From assembly GCF_021735925.1 (NCBI RefSeq), contig NZ_WMEA01000001.1:809001-873000 (forward strand): a DNA stretch of 64,000 nucleotides. Reading direction: 5' to 3'. Both the position numbers and the translations under genes were made by a program. Below the pieces are notes generated by a model, which worked only from the letters and a program-made list of their open reading frames with translations, was not told where the DNA came from and did not search any database. Shown in pieces: positions 2,611-38,445 of this stretch (the first letter of the stretch is position 1; each line of letters begins with the position of its first letter). This DNA comes from Loktanella sp. M215 (GTDB lineage Bacteria > Pseudomonadota > Alphaproteobacteria > Rhodobacterales > Rhodobacteraceae).

Positions 2611-3594
2611 TCAGTTCAACGCCTTGTCGGTGATCTCGTGCGTCCAGGCGCCTTCAGGTGCCTTGGAAATCACCGGGTCAGACCCGCCCGCCAGCAACGT
2701 GTCGACGGTGCGCTGATAGTCGGCCTCGTCCAGCGTGCCGTTCGATCCGGCCGTCAGCTTGGCGACTTCGCCCATCATGCGTTCCTGCGCCGCCAGCGAC
2801 TGGGCACCGGTCTCGTCGTTGTCCAGCACGATCTGCGCCGCCTCGTCGGGATTCTCTTCAGCGTACTTCCAGCCTTTCATGGACGCACGGACGAACTTCA
2901 CCATCTTGTCGACGAATTCCGGGTTCTTGAGGTTATCCTCCAGCACCCACATGCCGTCTTCCAGCGTGGCGACGCCCTGGTCTTCATACTTGAAGGTCAC
3001 CAGCTCCTCCGGTGTCACGCCCGCATCCAGCACCTGACCGTATTCATTATAGGTCATGGTGGAAATGCAGTCCGCCTGCCGCTGCAACAGCGGATCGACG
3101 TTAAACCCCTGCTTCAACACCGTGACACCGTCATCGCCGCCGTCGGTGGAAATACCGGCCTGGCTCATCCACGACAGGAACGGATATTCGTTGCCAAAGA
3201 ACCAGACGCCGATGGTCTTGCCCTTGAAATCCTCCACGCTCGTGATGCCGGTGTCCTTCCAGCAGGTCAGCATCAGGCCCGATGTCTTGAACGGCTGCGC
3301 GATATTCACGACCGGCAGCCCCTTTTCCCGGGCGGCGAGGGCAGAGGGCATCCAGTTCAGCATGACGTCCGCACCGCCACCGGCCAGCACCTGCGGCGGC
3401 GCGATGTCGGGACCGCCGGGCAGGATGGTGACGTTCAGCCCCTCTTCCTCGTAATAGCCCTTGTCCTGCGCCACGTAATAGCCCGCGAACTGCGACTGCG
3501 TGACCCACTGCAGCTGCAGTTTCACGTCGCTGTCCTGCGCGGTCGCCGCACTGGCGACAAAGGCCAGCGTGGCGGCGGTGATCAGATGCTTCAT
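2611..3594 (-). CDS. NMT1/THI5-like ABC transporter substrate-binding protein
   Basis: A 327-residue periplasmic binding protein of the NMT1/SsuA/ThiY fold. A Sec signal peptide is visible (residues 1-19, ending ATA-Q). The family pattern follows: LQWVTQSQFAGYYVAQDKGY near residue 30, then a GGPDIAPPQVLAGGGADVM loop. It is the last gene of a minus-strand block with two permeases and an ATPase, and lies 24 bp after the preceding permease. These genes follow dihydropyrimidinase and ureidopropionase-type genes, so a pyrimidine, hydantoin or related N-heterocycle is the likely ligand. That specificity is inferred from context; the family also binds thiamine precursors, sulfonates and riboflavin. 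A clear SD (GAAGGAGAG) precedes the ATG. Confidence 0.85.
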   Translation of the reverse strand: MKHLITAATLAFVASAATAQDSDVKLQLQWVTQSQFAGYYVAQDKGYYEEEGLNVTILPGGPDIAPPQVLAGGGADVMLNWMPSALAAREKGLPVVNIAQPFKTSGLMLTCWKDTGITSVEDFKGKTIGVWFFGNEYPFLSWMSQAGISTDGGDDGVTVLKQGFNVDPLLQRQADCISTMTYNEYGQVLDAGVTPEELVTFKYEDQGVATLEDGMWVLEDNLKNPEFVDKMVKFVRASMKGWKYAEENPDEAAQIVLDNDETGAQSLAAQERMMGEVAKLTAGSNGTLDEADYQRTVDTLLAGGSDPVISKAPEGAWTHEITDKALN

Positions 3595-3618: not shown

Positions 3619-4455
3619 TTATGTACGTTGCGACGGATGCCAGAAGGTCAGCCGTTTCTCGATCAGCGCCATCGCACCGTAAAAGGCACTGCCGGCAAGG
3701 GCTGCGACGACAATCTCCGCCCAGACGAGGTCCAGCGCAAGCTGCCCCACGCTGGTCGAGATGCGAAAGCCCATCCCCACGGTAGGAGAGCCGAAGAATT
3801 CCGCAACGATGGCCCCGATCAGCGCCAGCGTCGTGGCAATCTTCAACCCGTTGAACACGAAAGGCAGCGCCGCAGGCACCCGCAGCTTCAACAGGCTGGG
3901 CCAGTAGCCGGCGCCATATGTCCGCATCAGGTCGCGCTGCATTGCCGTGGTATCGCGCAGCCCCGCGACCGTGTTCACGAGGATCGGAAAGAACACCATG
4001 ACGCCCACGACGGCGGCTTTCGACGGCCAGTCGCTGCCCAGCCACTTCACGAAGATCGGCGCGGTGCCCACGATCGGCAGCGCCGCCATGAAGGCCCCCA
4101 CGGGCAGGATGCCCCGCGTCAGAAAATCCGACCGGTCGACCATGACCGCGACGGCAAAGGCCGCCAGCGCGCCCAGCACGTATCCCGTCAACGCCCCCTT
4201 CAGGATCGTCTGCGCAAAATCCGCCCAGAGGATCGGCAGGCTGTCCATGAACCGGACAGCGATGGCACTGGGCGGCGGCAGGATGATCGGACTGACATTG
4301 CCCAGCCGCACCCCCACCTCCCAGATCACCAACAGCGTCAGGCCAAAGACCAAAGGCGCCAGCCATCCGGCGGCCCGGTGGTCCCTCCGTGCCAGCATCA
4401 GGTTGATGACCCAGCCCGCGCCCCAGACGACCATGACGGCGGCCAGCGCCATCAT
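3619..4455 (-). CDS. ABC transporter inner-membrane permease (NMT1-type system)
   Basis: A 278-residue BPD_transp_1 permease with about six hydrophobic segments. The cytoplasmic EAA-like coupling loop is visible as RDLMRTYGAGYWPSLLKLR, followed by a proline-containing segment (VPAALPFVFNGLKI) as in SsuC/ThiX proteins. The ATG overlaps the stop of the preceding permease (ATGA), so the two are translationally coupled and probably form a heterodimeric channel. It works with the ATPase at 5441-6214 and the binding protein at 2611-3594. Function as importer subunit is secure; the substrate is inferred from the linked pyrimidine genes. Confidence 0.87.
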   Translation of the reverse strand: MMALAAVMVVWGAGWVINLMLARRDHRAAGWLAPLVFGLTLLVIWEVGVRLGNVSPIILPPPSAIAVRFMDSLPILWADFAQTILKGALTGYVLGALAAFAVAVMVDRSDFLTRGILPVGAFMAALPIVGTAPIFVKWLGSDWPSKAAVVGVMVFFPILVNTVAGLRDTTAMQRDLMRTYGAGYWPSLLKLRVPAALPFVFNGLKIATTLALIGAIVAEFFGSPTVGMGFRISTSVGQLALDLVWAEIVVAALAGSAFYGAMALIEKRLTFWHPSQRT

Positions 4456-5369
4456 CGCACCATCCCCATACGCTTCAGCGACGCCCGCTCCAGCGCGCTG
4501 AAGATCCCGACCAGCACCGCTGCCGTGATCGCAGCGGCGAACAGCGCCGCCCAGGTCACCAGCGGCTGGCCGTACTGATCCCCCACCAGCATCCGCGCCC
4601 CGAACCCGGCCCGCGCGCCGGTCGGCAATTCACCCACGATCGCCCCCACCAGCGCTGCCGAAATCCCGATCTTCAACGAGGCGAAAAGATAGGGCAATGA
4701 CGCCGGCAACCGCAGTTTCCAGAACCCCTGCGCCGGGCTCGCGTAATAGGTCCGCAGCAGGTCCAGCTGCATTGCGTCGGGGCTGCGCAACCCCTTCACC
4801 ATGCCGACCACCACGGGAAAGAATGACAGATAGGCACTGATGATCGCCTTCGGCAGCAAGCCCTGAATGCCCAGCGACCCCATGATCACGATGATCATCG
4901 GCGCCAGCGCCAGAATGGGGATCGTCTGGCTGGCAATCGCCCAGGGCATGACGCTCAGATCCATCGTCCGCGAAAACACGATTCCGACGGCCAAAGCGAT
5001 CCCCAGCGTCGTGCCGATGGCAAACCCCAGCAGCGTCGCCGACAGCGTCACCCAGCCATGATAGACAAGGCTCTGTTTCGACGAAATCCGCGTCCCCACG
5101 GTCGTTTTCCACAGCTCCGCCACGACCTGCTGCGGCCCCGGCAGTCGCGGCCTGTCCAGCGTATAGGTGGCCCCGATCACCCCCGGATTGCGCGCGGCCA
5201 GCGCCAGCGCCCCCACCTCCTGCCGCGCGACAGGCGTCTCCGGCACCACCACCACGCCGTCCCGCTGCGCCTGATCCACCGCCAGATGAATGTTCATCGG
5301 CACCACCGCCAGCACCCAAAGGCCCAGCAACACCGCCACAACCGTCAGAACCGGCAGCACGTTACGCAT
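4452..5369 (-). CDS. ABC transporter inner-membrane permease with enlarged periplasmic loop
   Basis: Second permease of the system, about 305 residues. TM1 is residues about 4-25; an unusually long periplasmic stretch of about 70 residues comes before the BPD_transp_1 core. The coupling loop reads LDLLRTYYASPAQGFWKLR. Start choice: the frame can be read from a GTG at 5444 that overlaps the ATPase stop. However, the extra 25 residues would be encoded largely by a dispersed intergenic element (5380-5417), which elsewhere lies between genes. GAGGA from that element lies about 8-11 nt before GTG/ATG at 5372/5369, and the protein then begins with its first TM (MRNVLPVLTVV). I therefore prefer 5369. 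The 3' end overlaps the next permease by 4 bp. Confidence 0.8.
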   Translation of the reverse strand: MRNVLPVLTVVAVLLGLWVLAVVPMNIHLAVDQAQRDGVVVVPETPVARQEVGALALAARNPGVIGATYTLDRPRLPGPQQVVAELWKTTVGTRISSKQSLVYHGWVTLSATLLGFAIGTTLGIALAVGIVFSRTMDLSVMPWAIASQTIPILALAPMIIVIMGSLGIQGLLPKAIISAYLSFFPVVVGMVKGLRSPDAMQLDLLRTYYASPAQGFWKLRLPASLPYLFASLKIGISAALVGAIVGELPTGARAGFGARMLVGDQYGQPLVTWAALFAAAITAAVLVGIFSALERASLKRMGMVR

Positions 5370-5379
5370 CACCGCCGGC

Positions 5380-5417
5380 GTCCTCGCTTTTTTCGAAATA
5401 CGCCCCGCGGAGCGTCC
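5380..5417 (-). repeat. Dispersed intergenic element, copy A
   Basis: Read on the minus strand it runs GGACGCTCCGCGGGG, CGTATTTCGAAAAAA, GCGAGGAC. It is nearly identical to copy C at 26197-26234, differing at a few positions around the AT-rich centre. It lies between the ATPase gene and the functional start of the permease. Its terminal GCGAGGAC probably serves as that permease's ribosome-binding site. Confidence 0.75.
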
Positions 5418-5440
5418 GGCAAAGGCCAAGACCGCAAAGC

Positions 5441-6214
5441 TCACTCATACGAATGCCCCGCCCGCAGCCCGTCCCGCACCCGGTGCGCGATCGCGATGAA
5501 TTCCGCCGAGTCGCGAATGTCCAGGGGCCGCTCCTTCGGCAGGGTGCTCTCGATCACATCCGCAATCCGCCCGGGACGCGGGCTCATCACGACGATCTTG
5601 GTCGACAGATAGACCGCCTCGGGGATCGAGTGCGTGACGAAGCCGATGGTCTTGTCCGTCCGCGCCCACAACTGCAACAACTGCTCGTTCAGATGGTCCC
5701 GCACGATCTCGTCCAGCGCCCCGAAAGGTTCGTCCATCAGCAGGATATCCGCATCGAACGCCAGCGCCCGCGCGATGCTCGCCCGCTGCTGCATCCCGCC
5801 AGAAAGCTGCCAGGGAAACTTCCGCTCGAACCCCGCCAGGTCCACAAGGTCCAGCACGCGCTTTACCCGCTCCGCCTGTTCGGCTTTGGAAAACCCCATG
5901 ATCTCCAGCGGCAGCTTCACGTTGCCCCCGATGGTCCGCCACGGATAAAGCCCCGCCGCCTGAAACACATAGCCATAGGCCCGCGCCTTGCGCGCCGCCT
6001 CCGGCGACATCCCGTTCACGGTCAGCGTGCCGCCCGTCGGAGTCTCCAGCCCCGCGATGCAGCGCAGAAACGTCGTCTTCCCGCACCCCGAAGGCCCGAT
6101 GAAACTGACGAAATCGCCCTTGTTGATGTCCAGCGTGACGTCCTTCAGCGCGTGAACCGGGCCGTCGTTGGTCTGGAAGGTCAGGTCCACACCAGTTGCT
6201 GAGATGGCGGTCAA
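5441..6214 (-). CDS. ABC transporter ATP-binding protein (NMT1-type system)
   Basis: A 257-residue SsuB/TauB-type ATPase that powers the two permeases. All motifs are intact: Walker A GPSGCGKTT (40-48), Q-loop Gln85, signature LSGGMQQ (137-143), Walker B ILLMDEP with Glu162, and His195 in VTHS. The start is TTG at 6214, overlapping the TGA of the low-GC gene upstream (TTGA), with GGAAGA immediately before it. A TTG start is unusual here. It may reflect loss of the original upstream region when the GIY-YIG gene was inserted: AT-rich DNA begins directly upstream of this codon. A possible in-frame alternative is a GTG seven codons further in. Confidence 0.88.
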   Translation of the reverse strand: MTAISATGVDLTFQTNDGPVHALKDVTLDINKGDFVSFIGPSGCGKTTFLRCIAGLETPTGGTLTVNGMSPEAARKARAYGYVFQAAGLYPWRTIGGNVKLPLEIMGFSKAEQAERVKRVLDLVDLAGFERKFPWQLSGGMQQRASIARALAFDADILLMDEPFGALDEIVRDHLNEQLLQLWARTDKTIGFVTHSIPEAVYLSTKIVVMSPRPGRIADVIESTLPKERPLDIRDSAEFIAIAHRVRDGLRAGHSYE

Positions 6215-6750
6215 TCTTCCACGTCCACTTTGCGAATATAATTATGGTTTGAAGATATAGGCATGAGAGCCCATTTGAATCCCCTCCCTGAACCTGGATT
6301 TAATATGTTCATAAAACCACTTGCGTATGTGTGTATCCGATCATGGTATTCATTCTGCTTATTAAGCAATGGCAAAGCGCCGTAATCCTTGCAAAAGCGC
6401 CACAGCAGGTCGGCCTCAACATCCCTATGTCTTGCCTTGTTTTTCTTTGTAACTGGTCTAGTATAGCGAATTTCTATTTTGAGCGATGGAAAGTCCTTCG
6501 CTAAATCTACCACCCAGGTCTTTAAATGCTTACGCAATCTTAGTTTTGTATTCCCTTCCCCAATATACAGAACTGGCGAAGGCTTTTTTGGATAAGCAAT
6601 TGAAAACGGCCTCACCGTTCTAATCACATAAACCCCTTCATTCGGAAGTTGCTCATCCACAGCTTTTAGATGCGCTTTGACTGTTGCCCAACCATCACTG
6701 GCGGTGATTGATGATCCTAGGCTCATCCACTCAGATGCGATTTTGGCCAA
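6211..6750 (-). CDS. Stand-alone GIY-YIG-like nuclease, low-GC insertion
   Basis: A 179-residue protein whose spaced residues match a GIY-YIG catalytic fold: GVY (39-41), LYIG (61-64), a basic helix with Arg71/Arg73 and His75, Glu112 in DVEADLLWRF, and Asn130 in PLLNK. The GVY-to-YIG gap (about 20 residues) is longer than the usual 10-11. Sampled stretches are about 33-43% GC against about 65% in the flanking genes, so recent acquisition is likely. It starts 3 bp after the dihydropyrimidinase stop and its TGA overlaps the ATPase start. The tight fit suggests a selfish or homing-type insertion, or a captured defence nuclease, that kept the operon readable. No intein, intron or partner methylase is visible. 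The fold call is good; its biological role is unknown. Confidence 0.72.
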   Translation of the reverse strand: MAKIASEWMSLGSSITASDGWATVKAHLKAVDEQLPNEGVYVIRTVRPFSIAYPKKPSPVLYIGEGNTKLRLRKHLKTWVVDLAKDFPSLKIEIRYTRPVTKKNKARHRDVEADLLWRFCKDYGALPLLNKQNEYHDRIHTYASGFMNILNPGSGRGFKWALMPISSNHNYIRKVDVED

Positions 6751-6753
6751 AGC

Positions 6754-8205
6754 TCACACCCCCGTCGCCGGAATCCCCGACCGCTCCACCGGGCGCGGCG
6801 CAGTCAGCTCTTTCCACGTCGACAGCGCCCGGTTGACCGACCCCTTCGCCTCTCGCGCCACGAACTGCCCATGCCCCGGCTCGGGAATGATCGCACCATC
6901 GGCAAAGGCCACGCGGCCCCGCGTCAGCGTATAGCGCGGCAGGCCCTTTACCTCCTTCCCCTCAAAGACGTTGTAATCGATGTTCGACTGCTGGGCACCC
7001 GCCGTGATCGTCTTGGCAGCCTCCGGGTCCCAGACGACCAGATCGGCATCAGACCCCACCAGCACGGCCCCCTTGCGGGGATAGCAGTTCAGGATCTTGG
7101 CGATATTGGTCGAGGTCACGGCGACGAATTCGTTCGGCGTCAGCCGCCCGGTGCTGACCCCATGGGTCCAAAGCATCGGCAGCCGATCCTCCAGCCCGCC
7201 TGTGCCATTCGGGATCTTGGTGAAATCGCCCACGCCTGTGCGCTTCTGCGCGGTGGTAAAGGCGCAATGGTCCGTCGCCACGACCGACAGCGACCCCGAC
7301 TGCAGCCCGGCCCACAGACTGTCCTGATGCTGCTTGTTCCGGAACGGCGGCGACATGACGCGCCGCGCCGCGTGGTCCCAGTCGGTGTCGAAATACTCGC
7401 TCTCGTCCAGCGTCAGATGCTGGATCAGCGGCTCGCCCCAGACCCGCTTGCCCTGCATCCGGGCCCGACGGATCGCTTCGTGGCTCTCCTCGCAGGACGT
7501 ATGCACGACATACAGCGGCATCCCCGCCATGTCGGCGATCATGATCGCCCGGTTCGTCGCCTCGCCCTCGACCTGCGTGGGGCGGGAATAGGCATGCGCT
7601 TCTGGCCCGGTATTGCCCGCCGCCAGCAGCCGCGCCGACAACTCCGCCACGACATCGCCATTCTCCGCATGGACCATGCCGATCCCGCCCAGCTCGGCCA
7701 GACGAGAGAACGAAGCAAAAAGCTCGTCATCGTTCACCATCAGCGCGCCCTTGTAGGCCATGAAATGCTTGAACGTCGTGATACCCCGTTCGATGACCTT
7801 CGGCATCTCATCGAAGACCTGCTTGTCCCACCACGTCACCGCCATGTGAAAGGAATAGTCGCAATGCGCCCGCGTCGACTTGTTGTCCCACATCTGCAAC
7901 GCGTCCAGCAGCCCCTGCCCCGGGCTTGGCAAGGCAAAGTCCACGACCATCGTCGTCCCCCCCGCCAGCGCCGCCCGCGTCCCGCTCTCGAAATCGTCCG
8001 CCGAATAGGTGCCCATGAAGGGCATCTCGAGGTGCGTATGCGGGTCGATCCCGCCCGGCATGACATAGCACCCGGTTGCGTCCAGCACCTCGTCCCCCTC
8101 AAGGTCCGGCCCGATCGCGACGATCACATCACCTTCGATCAGCACGTCCGCCTTGTAGGTCAGATCGGCAGTCACGACCGTCCCGTTCTTGATCACCTTG
8201 CTCAT
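6754..8205 (-). CDS. hydA: Dihydropyrimidinase / hydantoinase
   Basis: A 483-residue cyclic amidohydrolase that opens 5,6-dihydrouracil/dihydrothymine (or hydantoins) to N-carbamoyl products. Metal ligands are in place: HTH in DPHTHLEMP (His56, His58), the lysine expected to be carbamylated in FMAYKG (Lys152), His179 in VHAEN, His235 in VVHTSCEES, and the Asp of VATDHCAF. Start: the ATG at 8205 has AGGAG 7 nt upstream and is preferred over the adjacent in-frame GTG at 8208. It follows the carbamoyl-amino acid hydrolase gene by 77 bp, a gap filled by a dispersed element. Together the two carry out steps two and three of reductive pyrimidine degradation. Confidence 0.93.
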   Translation of the reverse strand: MSKVIKNGTVVTADLTYKADVLIEGDVIVAIGPDLEGDEVLDATGCYVMPGGIDPHTHLEMPFMGTYSADDFESGTRAALAGGTTMVVDFALPSPGQGLLDALQMWDNKSTRAHCDYSFHMAVTWWDKQVFDEMPKVIERGITTFKHFMAYKGALMVNDDELFASFSRLAELGGIGMVHAENGDVVAELSARLLAAGNTGPEAHAYSRPTQVEGEATNRAIMIADMAGMPLYVVHTSCEESHEAIRRARMQGKRVWGEPLIQHLTLDESEYFDTDWDHAARRVMSPPFRNKQHQDSLWAGLQSGSLSVVATDHCAFTTAQKRTGVGDFTKIPNGTGGLEDRLPMLWTHGVSTGRLTPNEFVAVTSTNIAKILNCYPRKGAVLVGSDADLVVWDPEAAKTITAGAQQSNIDYNVFEGKEVKGLPRYTLTRGRVAFADGAIIPEPGHGQFVAREAKGSVNRALSTWKELTAPRPVERSGIPATGV

Positions 8206-8224
8206 CACATTTCTCCTCGTCCGA

Positions 8225-8282: not shown

Positions 8283-9533
8283 TTACGCCACGATTCCCGC
8301 CGTCTCGACGACCGCATGGAACAGCACATCCGTCCCCGCCGCGGCCCACTCTTTCGAGATCTCTTCCGCCTCATTGTGGCTCAGCCCGTCCACGCAGGGG
8401 CACATCACCATCGCCGTCGGAAACAGCCGGTTCATCCAACAGGCGTCGTGGCCCGCGCCGGACACGATGTTCATGTGGGAATACCCCAGCCGCTCCGCCG
8501 CGTCCCGGATCGCGGTCACGCAGCCTTCGTCAAAGGTGACGGGGTCGAAATGCCCAACGGGTTCGATCGCAATCTCCAACCCCAGATCGGCGGCAATCTC
8601 CGCCGCCTCCGCCTCCAGCTTTTCGCGCATCGACGTCAGCTTCGCGAGGTCCGGCGAACGGAAGTCGATGGTGAACACCGCCTTGCCGGGAATCACGTTG
8701 CGCGAGTTCGGATAGACGTTGGCCTGCCCCACGGCCCCCACGGCGGCGGGCTGGTGATCCATCGCGATCCGGTGCACCGCTTCGGTGATCCGCGCCATGC
8801 CCAGCCCCGCATTGACCCGCATGTTCATGGGCGTGGACCCGGTATGCGCGGCCTTGCCGGTCAGCGTCACCTCCAGCCACCACAGGCCCTGCCCGTGGGT
8901 GACGACACCGATCTGCTTGCCCTCGGCCTCCAGAATCGGCCCCTGTTCGATGTGCAGCTCGAAAAAGGCGTGCATCTTGCGCGCGCCCACCCGCTCGTCA
9001 CCTTCCCAGCCGACGCGGCGCAGTTCGTCGCCAAAGGTCTTGCCGTCGGCGTCCGTGCGCGCCTTGGCCCAGTCCTCCGTATGCTCTCCTGCGAACACAC
9101 CCGACGCCAGCATCGCGGGGGCGAACCGCGTCCCTTCTTCGTTCGTCCAGTTGGTGACGACGATGGGATGCTTCGTCTTGATGCCAAGGTCGTTCAGCGA
9201 CCGGATCACCTCCAGCCCGCCCAGCACGCCCAGCACACCGTCGTATTTGCCCCCCGTCGGCTGCGTATCGAGGTGCGATCCGACGTAGACCGGCAGCGCG
9301 TCCGGGTCCGTCCCCTCGCGCCGCGCAAACATGTTGCCCATCGTGTCGACGCCCATCTTCAGCCCGGCCTTGGCGCACCAGCTGGCGAACAGGTGCCGCC
9401 CTTCACTGTCGGCATCCGTCAGCGTCTGGCGGTTGTTGCCGCCCGCGACCCCGGGGCCGATCTTGGCCATCTCCATCAAGGTATCCCACAGGCGATCGGG
9501 ATTGATCCGCAGATTTTCTCCGGGGGCTGCCAT
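8283..9533 (-). CDS. hydC: M20-type N-carbamoyl amino acid / beta-ureidopropionase-type amidohydrolase
   Basis: A 416-residue Zn-dependent hydrolase of the allantoate amidohydrolase / beta-ureidopropionase / hydantoin-racemase-linked group. Metal-binding and catalytic residues are visible: His87 in VGSHLDTQ, Asp98 in GGKYDGVLGV, and Glu132/Glu133 in TNEEGTRF. It should release beta-alanine (or beta-aminoisobutyrate), CO2 and ammonia from the HydA product. It is the first gene of the minus-strand operon, with SD AGGAGAAC before ATG, and lies divergent from the RutR-like gene. Allantoate as substrate is the main alternative, but the neighbours favour pyrimidines. Confidence 0.88.
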   Translation of the reverse strand: MAAPGENLRINPDRLWDTLMEMAKIGPGVAGGNNRQTLTDADSEGRHLFASWCAKAGLKMGVDTMGNMFARREGTDPDALPVYVGSHLDTQPTGGKYDGVLGVLGGLEVIRSLNDLGIKTKHPIVVTNWTNEEGTRFAPAMLASGVFAGEHTEDWAKARTDADGKTFGDELRRVGWEGDERVGARKMHAFFELHIEQGPILEAEGKQIGVVTHGQGLWWLEVTLTGKAAHTGSTPMNMRVNAGLGMARITEAVHRIAMDHQPAAVGAVGQANVYPNSRNVIPGKAVFTIDFRSPDLAKLTSMREKLEAEAAEIAADLGLEIAIEPVGHFDPVTFDEGCVTAIRDAAERLGYSHMNIVSGAGHDACWMNRLFPTAMVMCPCVDGLSHNEAEEISKEWAAAGTDVLFHAVVETAGIVA

Positions 9534-9575: not shown

Positions 9576-9703
9576 ACAAACGCTATCAGAGGGTCAGGGT
9601 CAGTCAAGCGTCACGCGCATTCATGCGGCAAACGCCCAACAATCGGGCAGACGACCGTGAAGCCGCCGAACCCTGCCGTATTTTGCGGCGCAAGGAGAAT
9701 GTG

Positions 9704-10330
9704 ATGACCGAGGCCCCGCCGTTGACCCGCATCCAGACCCGCAACCGCGCGGCGATCCTGTCCGGTGGCCTCGACGCCTTCTCGTCTGCGGGCTTCAAGG
9801 GCGCGACCCTCGACCAGATCGCCGAGGCCGCGGGCCTGTCGAAACCCAACCTGCTCTATTACTTCCCCTCCAAGGACGCGATCTACACGGCCCTGCTGGA
9901 AGGGTTGCTGGACACATGGCTCGACCCGCTGCACGCACTGGACGCCGACGGCGACCCCGTGGCCGAAATCCTCGCCTACGCCCACCGCAAGCTGTTGATG
10001 AGCCGCGATTATCCCCGCGAAAGCCGCCTTTTCGCCAACGAGATCCTCGCCGGTGCACCGCAGATCGGCGCGGTCCTGTCCGGCCCCCTGCGCACCCTTG
10101 TCGACGAAAAGGCGCAGGTCCTGCGCGGCTGGATGGACGCGGGGCGGATCAGGCCCAGTGACCCCCATCACCTGATCTTCTCGATCTGGGCGCTGACCCA
10201 GCATTACGCCGATTTCGACGTGCAGGTGCGCGCGGTGCTGGGCGACGCGGACCCGTTCACCGGGGCCGAACGCTTTATCGACCAGCTGTTCCGCAGCGTT
10301 CTGGAACCCGCAAAAGACGCGCCCTTGTAA
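9704..10330 (+). CDS. rutR: RutR-like TetR-family regulator of pyrimidine catabolism
   Basis: A 208-residue TetR-family protein. The helix-turn-helix spans about residues 33-57 (FKGATLDQIAEAAGLSKPNL), and LYYFPSKDAIY is typical of the RutR/YcdC branch. The C-terminal part (RESRLFANEIL, FSIWALTQHYADF) also matches that branch. In E. coli RutR binds uracil and controls pyrimidine degradation. Start: ATG at 9704 has AAGGAGAAT just upstream; the frame extends further up but without a good ribosome-binding site. It is divergent from hydC, with a RutR-type site between, so autoregulation and control of the hyd/ABC operon are expected. Confidence 0.85.
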   Translation: MTEAPPLTRIQTRNRAAILSGGLDAFSSAGFKGATLDQIAEAAGLSKPNLLYYFPSKDAIYTALLEGLLDTWLDPLHALDADGDPVAEILAYAHRKLLMSRDYPRESRLFANEILAGAPQIGAVLSGPLRTLVDEKAQVLRGWMDAGRIRPSDPHHLIFSIWALTQHYADFDVQVRAVLGDADPFTGAERFIDQLFRSVLEPAKDAPL

Positions 10331-37170: not shown

Positions 37171-37680
37171 CGAATCGACCTTAATGAGGCTTAACCAACA
37201 TCGCGGGAGACTGTGGCGGGATAAGGTCGGAAGGGTGGCGTTTTGGCGGCCGAGGTGGCTTTGCGCGGGTCTCTGACGCGGGCGCGCGGAAATACATCAC
37301 AAAAACCAAATGTTTCGCGTGCGATACATATTATGTAAAACGAGGGTGGTTTGTTAGGATTGGTTAACGAATTCTTGAAATCTCATGCATTTCCGCAATG
37401 TCCGCTTTGAGCCCAACGTCCGAAGATTCAGCTTCGCAGCGAACGTCAGCTGGTAGTCGGTGGCAAGATATCTTGAACGACGCCCCGGGTTTCGGGTGGG
37501 TTTCTTGGCAACGCGAAGACAGGTGTTTTTGACACGCCCGATTCTGTTGACGGCGTGGATGCCTCTCGCGACGCCATCCACGCCGTCAACAAAGCCGATC
37601 ATCTCTTTACGTTGAGCTTATGGCGCCTCAAATAGAAGGTCATCAGATAGAGGACAAAAGCCCTGAAAACTTTTATTTTT
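37171..37680. other. AT-enriched intergenic region, no supported gene
   Basis: The left part (37171-37350) is the leader/promoter of the VPLPA-CTERM gene, with AT-rich blocks and TTAATGAGGCTTAAC, which loosely resembles a CtrA-type site with one base less spacing. An 82-codon minus-strand frame (37354-37602) starts inside the inverted repeat, has no SD and no recognised family, so I do not call it. The region also holds the inverted repeat listed next. Confidence 0.5.
37545..37591. repeat. 17-bp perfect inverted repeat with 13-nt spacer
   Basis: Arms TGTTGACGGCGTGGATG and CATCCACGCCGTCAACA enclose CCTCTCGCGACGC. The arms are GC-richer than the surrounding DNA, and GTTGACGGCG recurs at about 38283 inside the IS3 relic. 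It could be a strong transcript-end hairpin (no U-run follows) or a remnant of mobile DNA. Confidence 0.7.
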
Positions 37681-38085
37681 ATGTTCTTTATTGTGATTTC
37701 GCTGTCTGCTGTTTTTGCAGTCGAACCCTTGGTAGGTCGCCAGACGGTTACAGTTTCGATTGAGTATATTGATGCTGCCCGTGAGTGTACAACCAGGGAT
37801 AGCGGGCTTCTTAGCTTATCAAGAAGGTCTTCAACTCCTGTAAAATCGCCGGGTAGCTTCTGTGGATACGTCTATTCAAACTTCGGATACTTTGAGCTTC
37901 CGCCAAGCGGGTTTTCCTTCTTCGATCGCAGGGAGAAGCTGTTTGACGCTTTGCGGGGGGGATGTGACGTGGAAATTGTAGTCAGCGGATATGGAACCGA
38001 TCTTACCCCAGATATTTTCGTGAGTGGCAGGAAGGCAAAGGTTTTACGAAAAGTGGTTCGTGAGATCGGATGTCATTCGTCATAA
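37681..38085 (+). CDS. Small exported or membrane-anchored protein, unknown, lower GC
   Basis: A 134-residue frame starting with a hydrophobic stretch (MFFIVISLSAVFAV), then a polar domain with four cysteines (36, 61, 95, 131) that could form two disulfides. A sampled stretch is about 47% GC, below the neighbours. No convincing SD precedes the ATG; the upstream DNA is A/T-rich. It sits between a strong inverted repeat and an IS3 relic, so it may be acquired DNA. No family is recognised. The continuous, biased frame supports a gene, but confidence is moderate. Confidence 0.5.
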   Translation: MFFIVISLSAVFAVEPLVGRQTVTVSIEYIDAARECTTRDSGLLSLSRRSSTPVKSPGSFCGYVYSNFGYFELPPSGFSFFDRREKLFDALRGGCDVEIVVSGYGTDLTPDIFVSGRKAKVLRKVVREIGCHSS

Positions 38086-38194
38086 AGTCCTGATTGGTCA
38101 ATGGTGACCCTCAGTGTTTCCGCTCTCGAGAGATAGAACAAATTCAGCCGGTATGACTTTGGCGGAACTCCCGGTGTTTGAGAATGCGGAATGG

Positions 38195-38445
38195 TCTTGT
38201 CGCATATTTGCACCGCTCGGTGTGCTCGTTTTGGCCCCTTGGCGTTCGAAGGCCAAGGGGCTTTTCCCTCTCACTGCTGAATGTTGACGGCGCGGGTTTC
38301 AAAAGCCGCTGATGACCTCGGAGATCGCCACCTCAGCCTGCCGCCGGGTTGCCCATGACCGACGCTAGATCAGCTCGGCCTTGCTGGTCTTGAAGAACGT
38401 CTCGACGGCCGCTTCGTCCGCTGACCAGACATAGGCAAGGAGTCG
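38195..38445 (-). pseudogene. Relic of IS3-family transposase OrfB (integrase core C-terminus)
   Basis: On the minus strand the frame reads DEAAVETFFKTSKAELI, stop, RRSWATRRQAEVAISEVI, SGF, stop, NPRRQHSAVRGKSPLAFE. This is the conserved end of the IS3 OrfB integrase domain (usual form AAVETFFKTIKAELIW, NGFYNPRRRHSALG). Stops replace the expected Trp and Tyr codons. The rest of the element and clear terminal repeats are missing. It is an old, dead insertion next to rlmN. Confidence 0.85.

Follow-up and report, generated by a model that had tools for sequence, protein, structure and literature searches.

A low-GC gene in the hyu operon

The window analyzed here is a 64,000-nt stretch of the genome of Loktanella sp. 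M215 (NZ_WMEA01000001.1), and all coordinates are positions within it. At 6211–6750, on the minus strand, it carries a gene for a 179-amino-acid protein that we assign to the GIY-YIG nucleases on the basis of its homologues, its predicted structure, and a fold match. The gene lies in an operon for pyrimidine degradation with the order hyuC-type amidohydrolase, hydA, nuclease, ABC transporter ATPase, two permeases, and substrate-binding protein; a RutR-like regulator gene is divergent. It starts with a TTG codon separated by 3 bp from the hydA stop (hydA ends at 6754) and ends with a TGA, the four bases TTGA being common to this stop and to the TTG start of the ATPase gene at 6214. The original prediction had placed both ends in this way, and its claim that the gene breaks no reading frame of the operon is supported as well. 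The TTG start of the nuclease is credible, because the alignments with its homologues begin at residue 1 (MA.I...W).

The G+C content (GC) of the gene is 0.431, and 0.42 at third codon positions (GC3). The six remaining genes, from hyuC to the binding-protein gene, have corresponding values of 0.62–0.66 and 0.84–0.86. The predicted fall in GC relative to the neighbors is real, although it amounts to about 22 points and not 25. The gene is the lowest 540-nt GC stretch of the 64 kb (mean 0.65, standard deviation 0.04), the next low region being one of 0.459 at 37604. It is a genuine gene of foreign origin, horizontally acquired, and forms a cassette between two hyu operon genes that leaves no room for a promoter of its own.

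The neighboring genes, all on the minus strand except the regulator, are identified with variable precision. The operon is headed by the hyuC-type amidohydrolase gene at 8283–9533 (NF006769, 699.6 bits, cut-off 452), followed by hydA at 6754–8208, which encodes a dihydropyrimidinase/D-hydantoinase (TIGR02033, 595.5 bits, cut-off 393.25) and has an intact 3′ end. Downstream of the nuclease gene lies the ATPase gene at 5441–6214 (PF00005, 107 bits). Family matches stay below the cut-offs for the first permease (4452–5444, weak matches), the second permease (3619–4455), and the substrate-binding protein (2611–3594), as they do for the RutR-like regulator of the TetR family at 9623–10330 on the plus strand (TIGR03613, 232.6 bits, cut-off 368). 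The 4-bp overlap at the end of the nuclease gene has counterparts at the ATPase/permease and permease/permease junctions. No methyltransferase gene lies beside the nuclease gene, whose direct neighbors are hydA and the ATPase gene; a type II restriction-modification pair was rejected on this ground.

Residues and fold of the nuclease

A profile search identified 196 proteins at an E value of 0.001, of which 120 were listed. Alignment A2 comprises 119 of these listed matches and leaves out a 99-amino-acid fragment (P0015). In the 119 sequences, residues Y41, Y62, G64, R71, E112, and N130 are invariant, and I63 and H75 are conserved in at least 90%. Their codons, checked on the minus strand, are located at 6628–6630 for Y41, the tyrosine of the first motif (GVY), 6559–6567 for the YIG motif Y62-I63-G64, 6526–6540 for R71-x3-H75, 6415–6417 for E112, the predicted metal-binding glutamate, and 6361–6363 for N130. 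The catalytic residues named in the original prediction are thus present as it described them. According to PMC1564403, the superfamily is recognized by the motifs GIY and YIG, followed by an Arg in the center and a Glu on the C-terminal side. The conserved VY41, Y62-I-G64, R71, E112, and N130 reproduce this pattern.

The predicted structure is a single compact model of the 179 residues with a pLDDT (predicted local distance difference test) of 92. When it was compared with 997 solved chains, the twelve best matches were all GIY-YIG folds. The model holds the GIY-YIG core with its Arg and Glu, and no additional DNA-binding domain was recognized in it beside the nuclease core. By the evidence of residues and model, the protein is a GIY-YIG nuclease and very probably active.

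Among the structural neighbors is the GIY-YIG domain of UvrC. Together with the strong constraint on the residues, this resemblance might point to a structure-specific nuclease acting in repair or recombination, useful to the cell, kept by it, and expressed with the operon. We consider such a role improbable, as the gene is missing from nearly all relatives and is foreign in composition. Moreover, we know of no functional link to pyrimidine catabolism, and our literature search returned nothing joining dihydropyrimidinase with GIY-YIG.

The family, comprising 196 proteins in this one profile search, was missed by all the sequence libraries tried. The window protein gave no match up to an E value of 1 in Pfam, NCBIfam, PADLOC, or PHROGs. 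Among the 15 members of alignment A1, Pfam found five families unrelated to one another, each in a single member (best E value 0.048), and ten wider homologues gave weak unrelated matches in three cases (best E value 0.0089). With PHROGs, weak matches were obtained for three of six proteins and none for the window protein. A sequence-profile search of the PDB returned chance-like rows and no GIY-YIG chain, and the top row of Foldseek used alone, DNA polymerase kappa (E value 0.027), was taken as chance. In the Foldseek viral library, the top row was an unnamed protein (probability 0.98, TM-score 0.40) and the tenth a Serratia phage "GIY-YIG domain-containing protein," all of these rows having E values above 0.01. 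The nuclease appears to be single-domain, has intact catalytic residues, and belongs to a family without a curated name but known in kind.

Recurrence at a junction with many occupants

The nuclease gene is rare. Counting the genome of the window itself, it was found in 1 of 101 relatives, 1 of 9 genomes of the genus, 1 of 394 genomes of the family, and in draws from the phylum and the class, in 4 of 398 and 4 of 385 genomes, respectively. Other matches in these two draws are distant or partial, one having an internal stop and one an E value of 5e-4. It is absent from the remaining 393 family genomes searched, and 260 of the family genomes hold a hydA relative (E-value limit 1e-220). Nearly all relatives thus lack the gene, and a gene carried by all of them at normal GC, which would have contradicted a foreign origin, was not what we found.

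Two other hosts carry a homologue at the very same junction. In one of them, Sulfitobacter sp. 20_GPM-1509m (L032, Rhodobacterales), it starts with TTG 2 bp past the hydA stop and its own stop overlaps the ATG of the ATPase gene. In a metagenome-assembled genome (MAG) of Aurantimonas coralicida (L033, Hyphomicrobiales), a binned 99-kb contig for which the host name is less sure, it starts with ATG 4 bp past the hydA stop and ends directly before the GTG of the ATPase gene. These two proteins (L032 and L033) are 46–47% and 49% identical to the window protein. In all three carriers, the GC3 of the nuclease gene is 0.41–0.42 and that of the flanking genes 0.79–0.88. In a tree of 35 rows chosen from the homologues, each of the three carriers has a branch of its own within a 16-row clade supported at 100/100. 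Metagenomic rows and Fuscovulum fall between them, and the members found at dnaN, on plasmids, and elsewhere fall outside the clade. The main point of interest of the locus is that one nuclease clade recurs at the identical junction in hosts of two orders. The main weakness of this argument is that 13 of the 16 clade rows, including Fuscovulum blasticum (P0008), come without a readable context.

The gene might instead have belonged to the operon since ancient times, passed down by vertical descent with loss from most lineages; this too would put it at an identical position in the three hosts, which represent two orders. Among the ATPases compared, that of Sulfitobacter is indeed closest to that of the window, but the margin is minimal (81.8%, the noncarrier L116 following with 81.4%). 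Vertical descent is very improbable, because it requires loss almost everywhere, in 393 of the 394 sampled family genomes of which 260 have a hydA relative, and a composition that never adapted to any of the three hosts. Furthermore, the nucleases are 46–49% identical while the ATPases are 73–84% identical. Cotransfer of the operon between carriers is not evident either: the ATPase of L033 is nearest to that of a noncarrier (L015), and the near tie for L032 is weak evidence.

We surveyed the hydA/ATPase junction in 118 genomes, namely that of the window, 17 relatives (L003–L019), and 100 taken in rank order from the hydA matches (E-value limit 1e-220, 260 family genomes, about 150 places listed). 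Eight further genomes with their first match in L020–L027 were left out. The survey is weighted to close hydA relatives. The gap could be measured in 113 genomes, five having no measurable one (L018, L019, L098, L117, and L123); its start was set by residue 1 of the window ATPase, with an accuracy of a few codons. Among the 112 genomes besides that of the window, the hydA–ATPase distance is under 150 bp in 68, 150–299 bp in 5, and at least 300 bp in 39. The empty junctions anticipated by the original prediction in related Rhodobacteraceae therefore exist, and the nuclease gene sits between conserved genes whose junction is short in most of the relatives surveyed.

The 39 long gaps hold genes of many kinds: a glyoxalase-like gene in ten, a cupin gene in seven, an SDR gene in three, a PLP decarboxylase gene in two, and genes for DHDPS, a DUF4240 protein, and a CPCC protein in one each, two loci holding two recognized kinds. 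The cupin gene is on the opposite strand in all seven loci, and one copy is a 27-residue piece. The 16 long gaps without any of these seven kinds yielded several small membrane proteins unmatched in Pfam as well as a molybdopterin-domain protein, and a few of them lack a convincing gene. In one additional genome, the slot is occupied by a gene for an NYN protein. Besides the three nuclease carriers, three long gaps have a GC under 0.5. Two loci, L066 and L071, have similar open reading frames of 60–61 amino acids running from the hydA stop (CECGCG..T.GGDFLPGHD); that of L066 was scanned and gave no Pfam match above the cut-off.

Other junctions of the operon vary as well. In a comparison of 107 loci that includes the carriers, the ATPase/permease junction is at least 300 bp long in 20 and the hydA/ATPase junction in 37. 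In 26 loci, some of which share a genome, hyuC and hydA lie 52–1314 bp apart. As its junctions vary in this way, the operon is a general acceptor of single genes: genes of many kinds are lodged between the members of a metabolic operon. Two low-GC genes without a Pfam family, which make the hyuC/hydA junction a second site of cargo in this operon, were noted: one in the Aurantimonas MAG (L033:7715–8551, 278 amino acids, GC 0.49) and one in genome G012 (L155:7959–8624, minus strand, 221 amino acids, GC 0.46).

The original prediction had taken the TTG start of the ATPase gene as a sign that its start region had been replaced. This does not hold. In 115 loci, an in-frame ATG is available in 82, a GTG without ATG in 25, and TTG alone in 8, and short junctions such as that of L003 occur among these loci; an insertion scar was rejected on this survey. 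The start of the window ATPase gene, TTGACCGCCAT, aligns with ATGAC[AC]GTCAT of L006 and L032; the TTG is thus accounted for by a point change of an ATG.

Possible defense cargo or directed copying

The flanks of the nuclease gene appear native. From nucleotide 31 on, the window ATPase gene finds its best match in its own genus, and the last 48 nt of hydA are best or tied best with the genus (89–92%), the conservation of the hydA end limiting the resolution of this comparison. Between carriers, the comparison was confined to the ATPase, as the hydA values of L032 and L033 were shifted by one codon and left out; it revealed no raised similarity at the ATPase start. As the flanks appear native and the carriers have none in common in the ATPase, the gene entered with little or no recognizable flanking DNA. 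Relics of the nuclease were sought in 86 survey gaps and in six more junctions, chosen for their long tabulated distances and kept outside the counts above; only the three carriers scored. Two routes of entry remain: recombination in the conserved flanks swapping the contents of the slot, or copying driven by the nuclease itself.

The second route corresponds to the homing-like or selfish element of the original prediction. A free-standing nuclease would cut an empty allele, in hydA or in the ATPase gene, and double-strand-break repair would copy it in, as in the "intronless homing" of the Seg enzymes of T4-like phages, and the clade would live at this junction wherever present. According to PMC2988022, the free-standing seg and mob genes of T4 are intergenic, seven are apparently promoterless, several belong to a polycistronic unit, and cleavage sites lie hundreds or thousands of bases away. 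The window gene is likewise intergenic, between conserved genes, and without its own promoter; it differs in residing on a cellular chromosome and in having no recognized separate DNA-binding domain. Its sporadic presence, the GC3 contrast shared by the three carriers, the short junctions of relatives, the identical junction in Sulfitobacter and the Aurantimonas MAG on separate branches, and a conserved hydA 3′ end (AT[TC]CC[GC]GC within the last 45 nt in 97 of 119 loci) all agree with homing. Nevertheless, we regard it as rather unlikely. Many unrelated genes use the same junction, no coconversion tract or common flank is visible among the three carriers, and no degenerate copy was found in the 83 other survey gaps. 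The compact one-domain model lacks an evident domain for binding a long target, and members outside the clade are found elsewhere, for example 4 bp past dnaN in an Erythrobacter MAG. If homing did apply, which we doubt, a self-directing single-domain GIY-YIG clade of alphaproteobacterial chromosomes would use one operon junction as a fixed address across orders. A free-standing nuclease would then be homing within cellular genomes, toward a metabolic operon of its host.

The explanation we lean toward, though tentatively and at slightly less than even chances, is a standalone defense-type nuclease read from the operon transcript and lodged in an exchangeable slot. The foreign GIY-YIG nuclease of the original prediction stands, and the small defense gene that it offered as an option is at least as likely as homing. 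Translation would start from the weak TTG just past hydA, the last codons of hydA (GGGGG) serving as ribosome-binding site. The product would be a DNA nuclease of the EndoII, PD-T4-3, or Eco29kI type that cuts invading DNA at modified bases or at sequences absent from the host, so that no methyltransferase partner would be necessary. The host might be spared by dependence on modified bases, by the absence of sites, or by low expression from the TTG start. Recombination between the conserved genes on either side would fill and empty the slot, and the same cargo clade could therefore recur there in different genera.

We place defense first because a target that is short or modified better suits a single-domain enzyme like EndoII, Eco29kI, and PD-T4-3. 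T4 endonuclease II (DenA), which degrades host DNA, is a phage enzyme and shares 15% identity with the window protein. PD-T4-3, a restriction enzyme specific for 5-hydroxymethylcytosine (PDB 9u75), is longer, with 248 residues. R.Eco29kI, a GIY-YIG type II restriction enzyme, carries R104-x3-H108 (PMC1952068), with the same spacing as R71-x3-H75; unlike it, the window nuclease has no adjoining methyltransferase.

Several observations weigh against defense cargo. We know of no activity for the nuclease. No defense family fits it: PADLOC was silent on the window protein and gave three weak matches among the 15 A1 members (PDC-S14 in two and DpdD in one, best E values 0.042 and 0.044). All three clade members with a readable place lie at the hydA/ATPase junction, which is not predicted by a mere cargo slot. 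Although the junctions ATPase/permease and hyuC/hydA are variable as well, they hold no nuclease gene in the three carriers. Finally, the flanks of the nuclease gene bear no trace of recent exchange. The recurrence of the clade at this junction is a directly testable case of either site-directed mobility or slot-mediated exchange of defense genes in bacteria.

Distant family members occupy other settings. Homologues with 35–36% identity are carried by plasmids of Pantoea, Escherichia albertii, and Duffyella; a megablast search of Escherichia coli genomes with the E. albertii homologue returned no close DNA match. The window protein has no match in the INPHARED phage collection, and 16 pattern matches of the nuclease alignment in viral contigs were not confirmed, so a phage origin by direct match was rejected. 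The Erythrobacter MAG member (L034:6152–6754), like the window gene, stands directly behind a conserved gene, dnaN. A 212-amino-acid distant member (L153, G690:C86) adjoins a type III CRISPR locus (Cmr2/Cas10, Cmr3, and RAMP), a WYL regulator, and a NERD-domain protein, and another (L152) lies in a stretch with a phage-type integrase. Elsewhere in the window, a second low-GC stretch at 37231–38250 (down to 0.459 over 540 nt) contains a 134-amino-acid open reading frame at 37681–38085. From about 38340, it is followed by what we take, from the translation, to be a remnant of an insertion-sequence transposase adjoining an rlmN-like gene.
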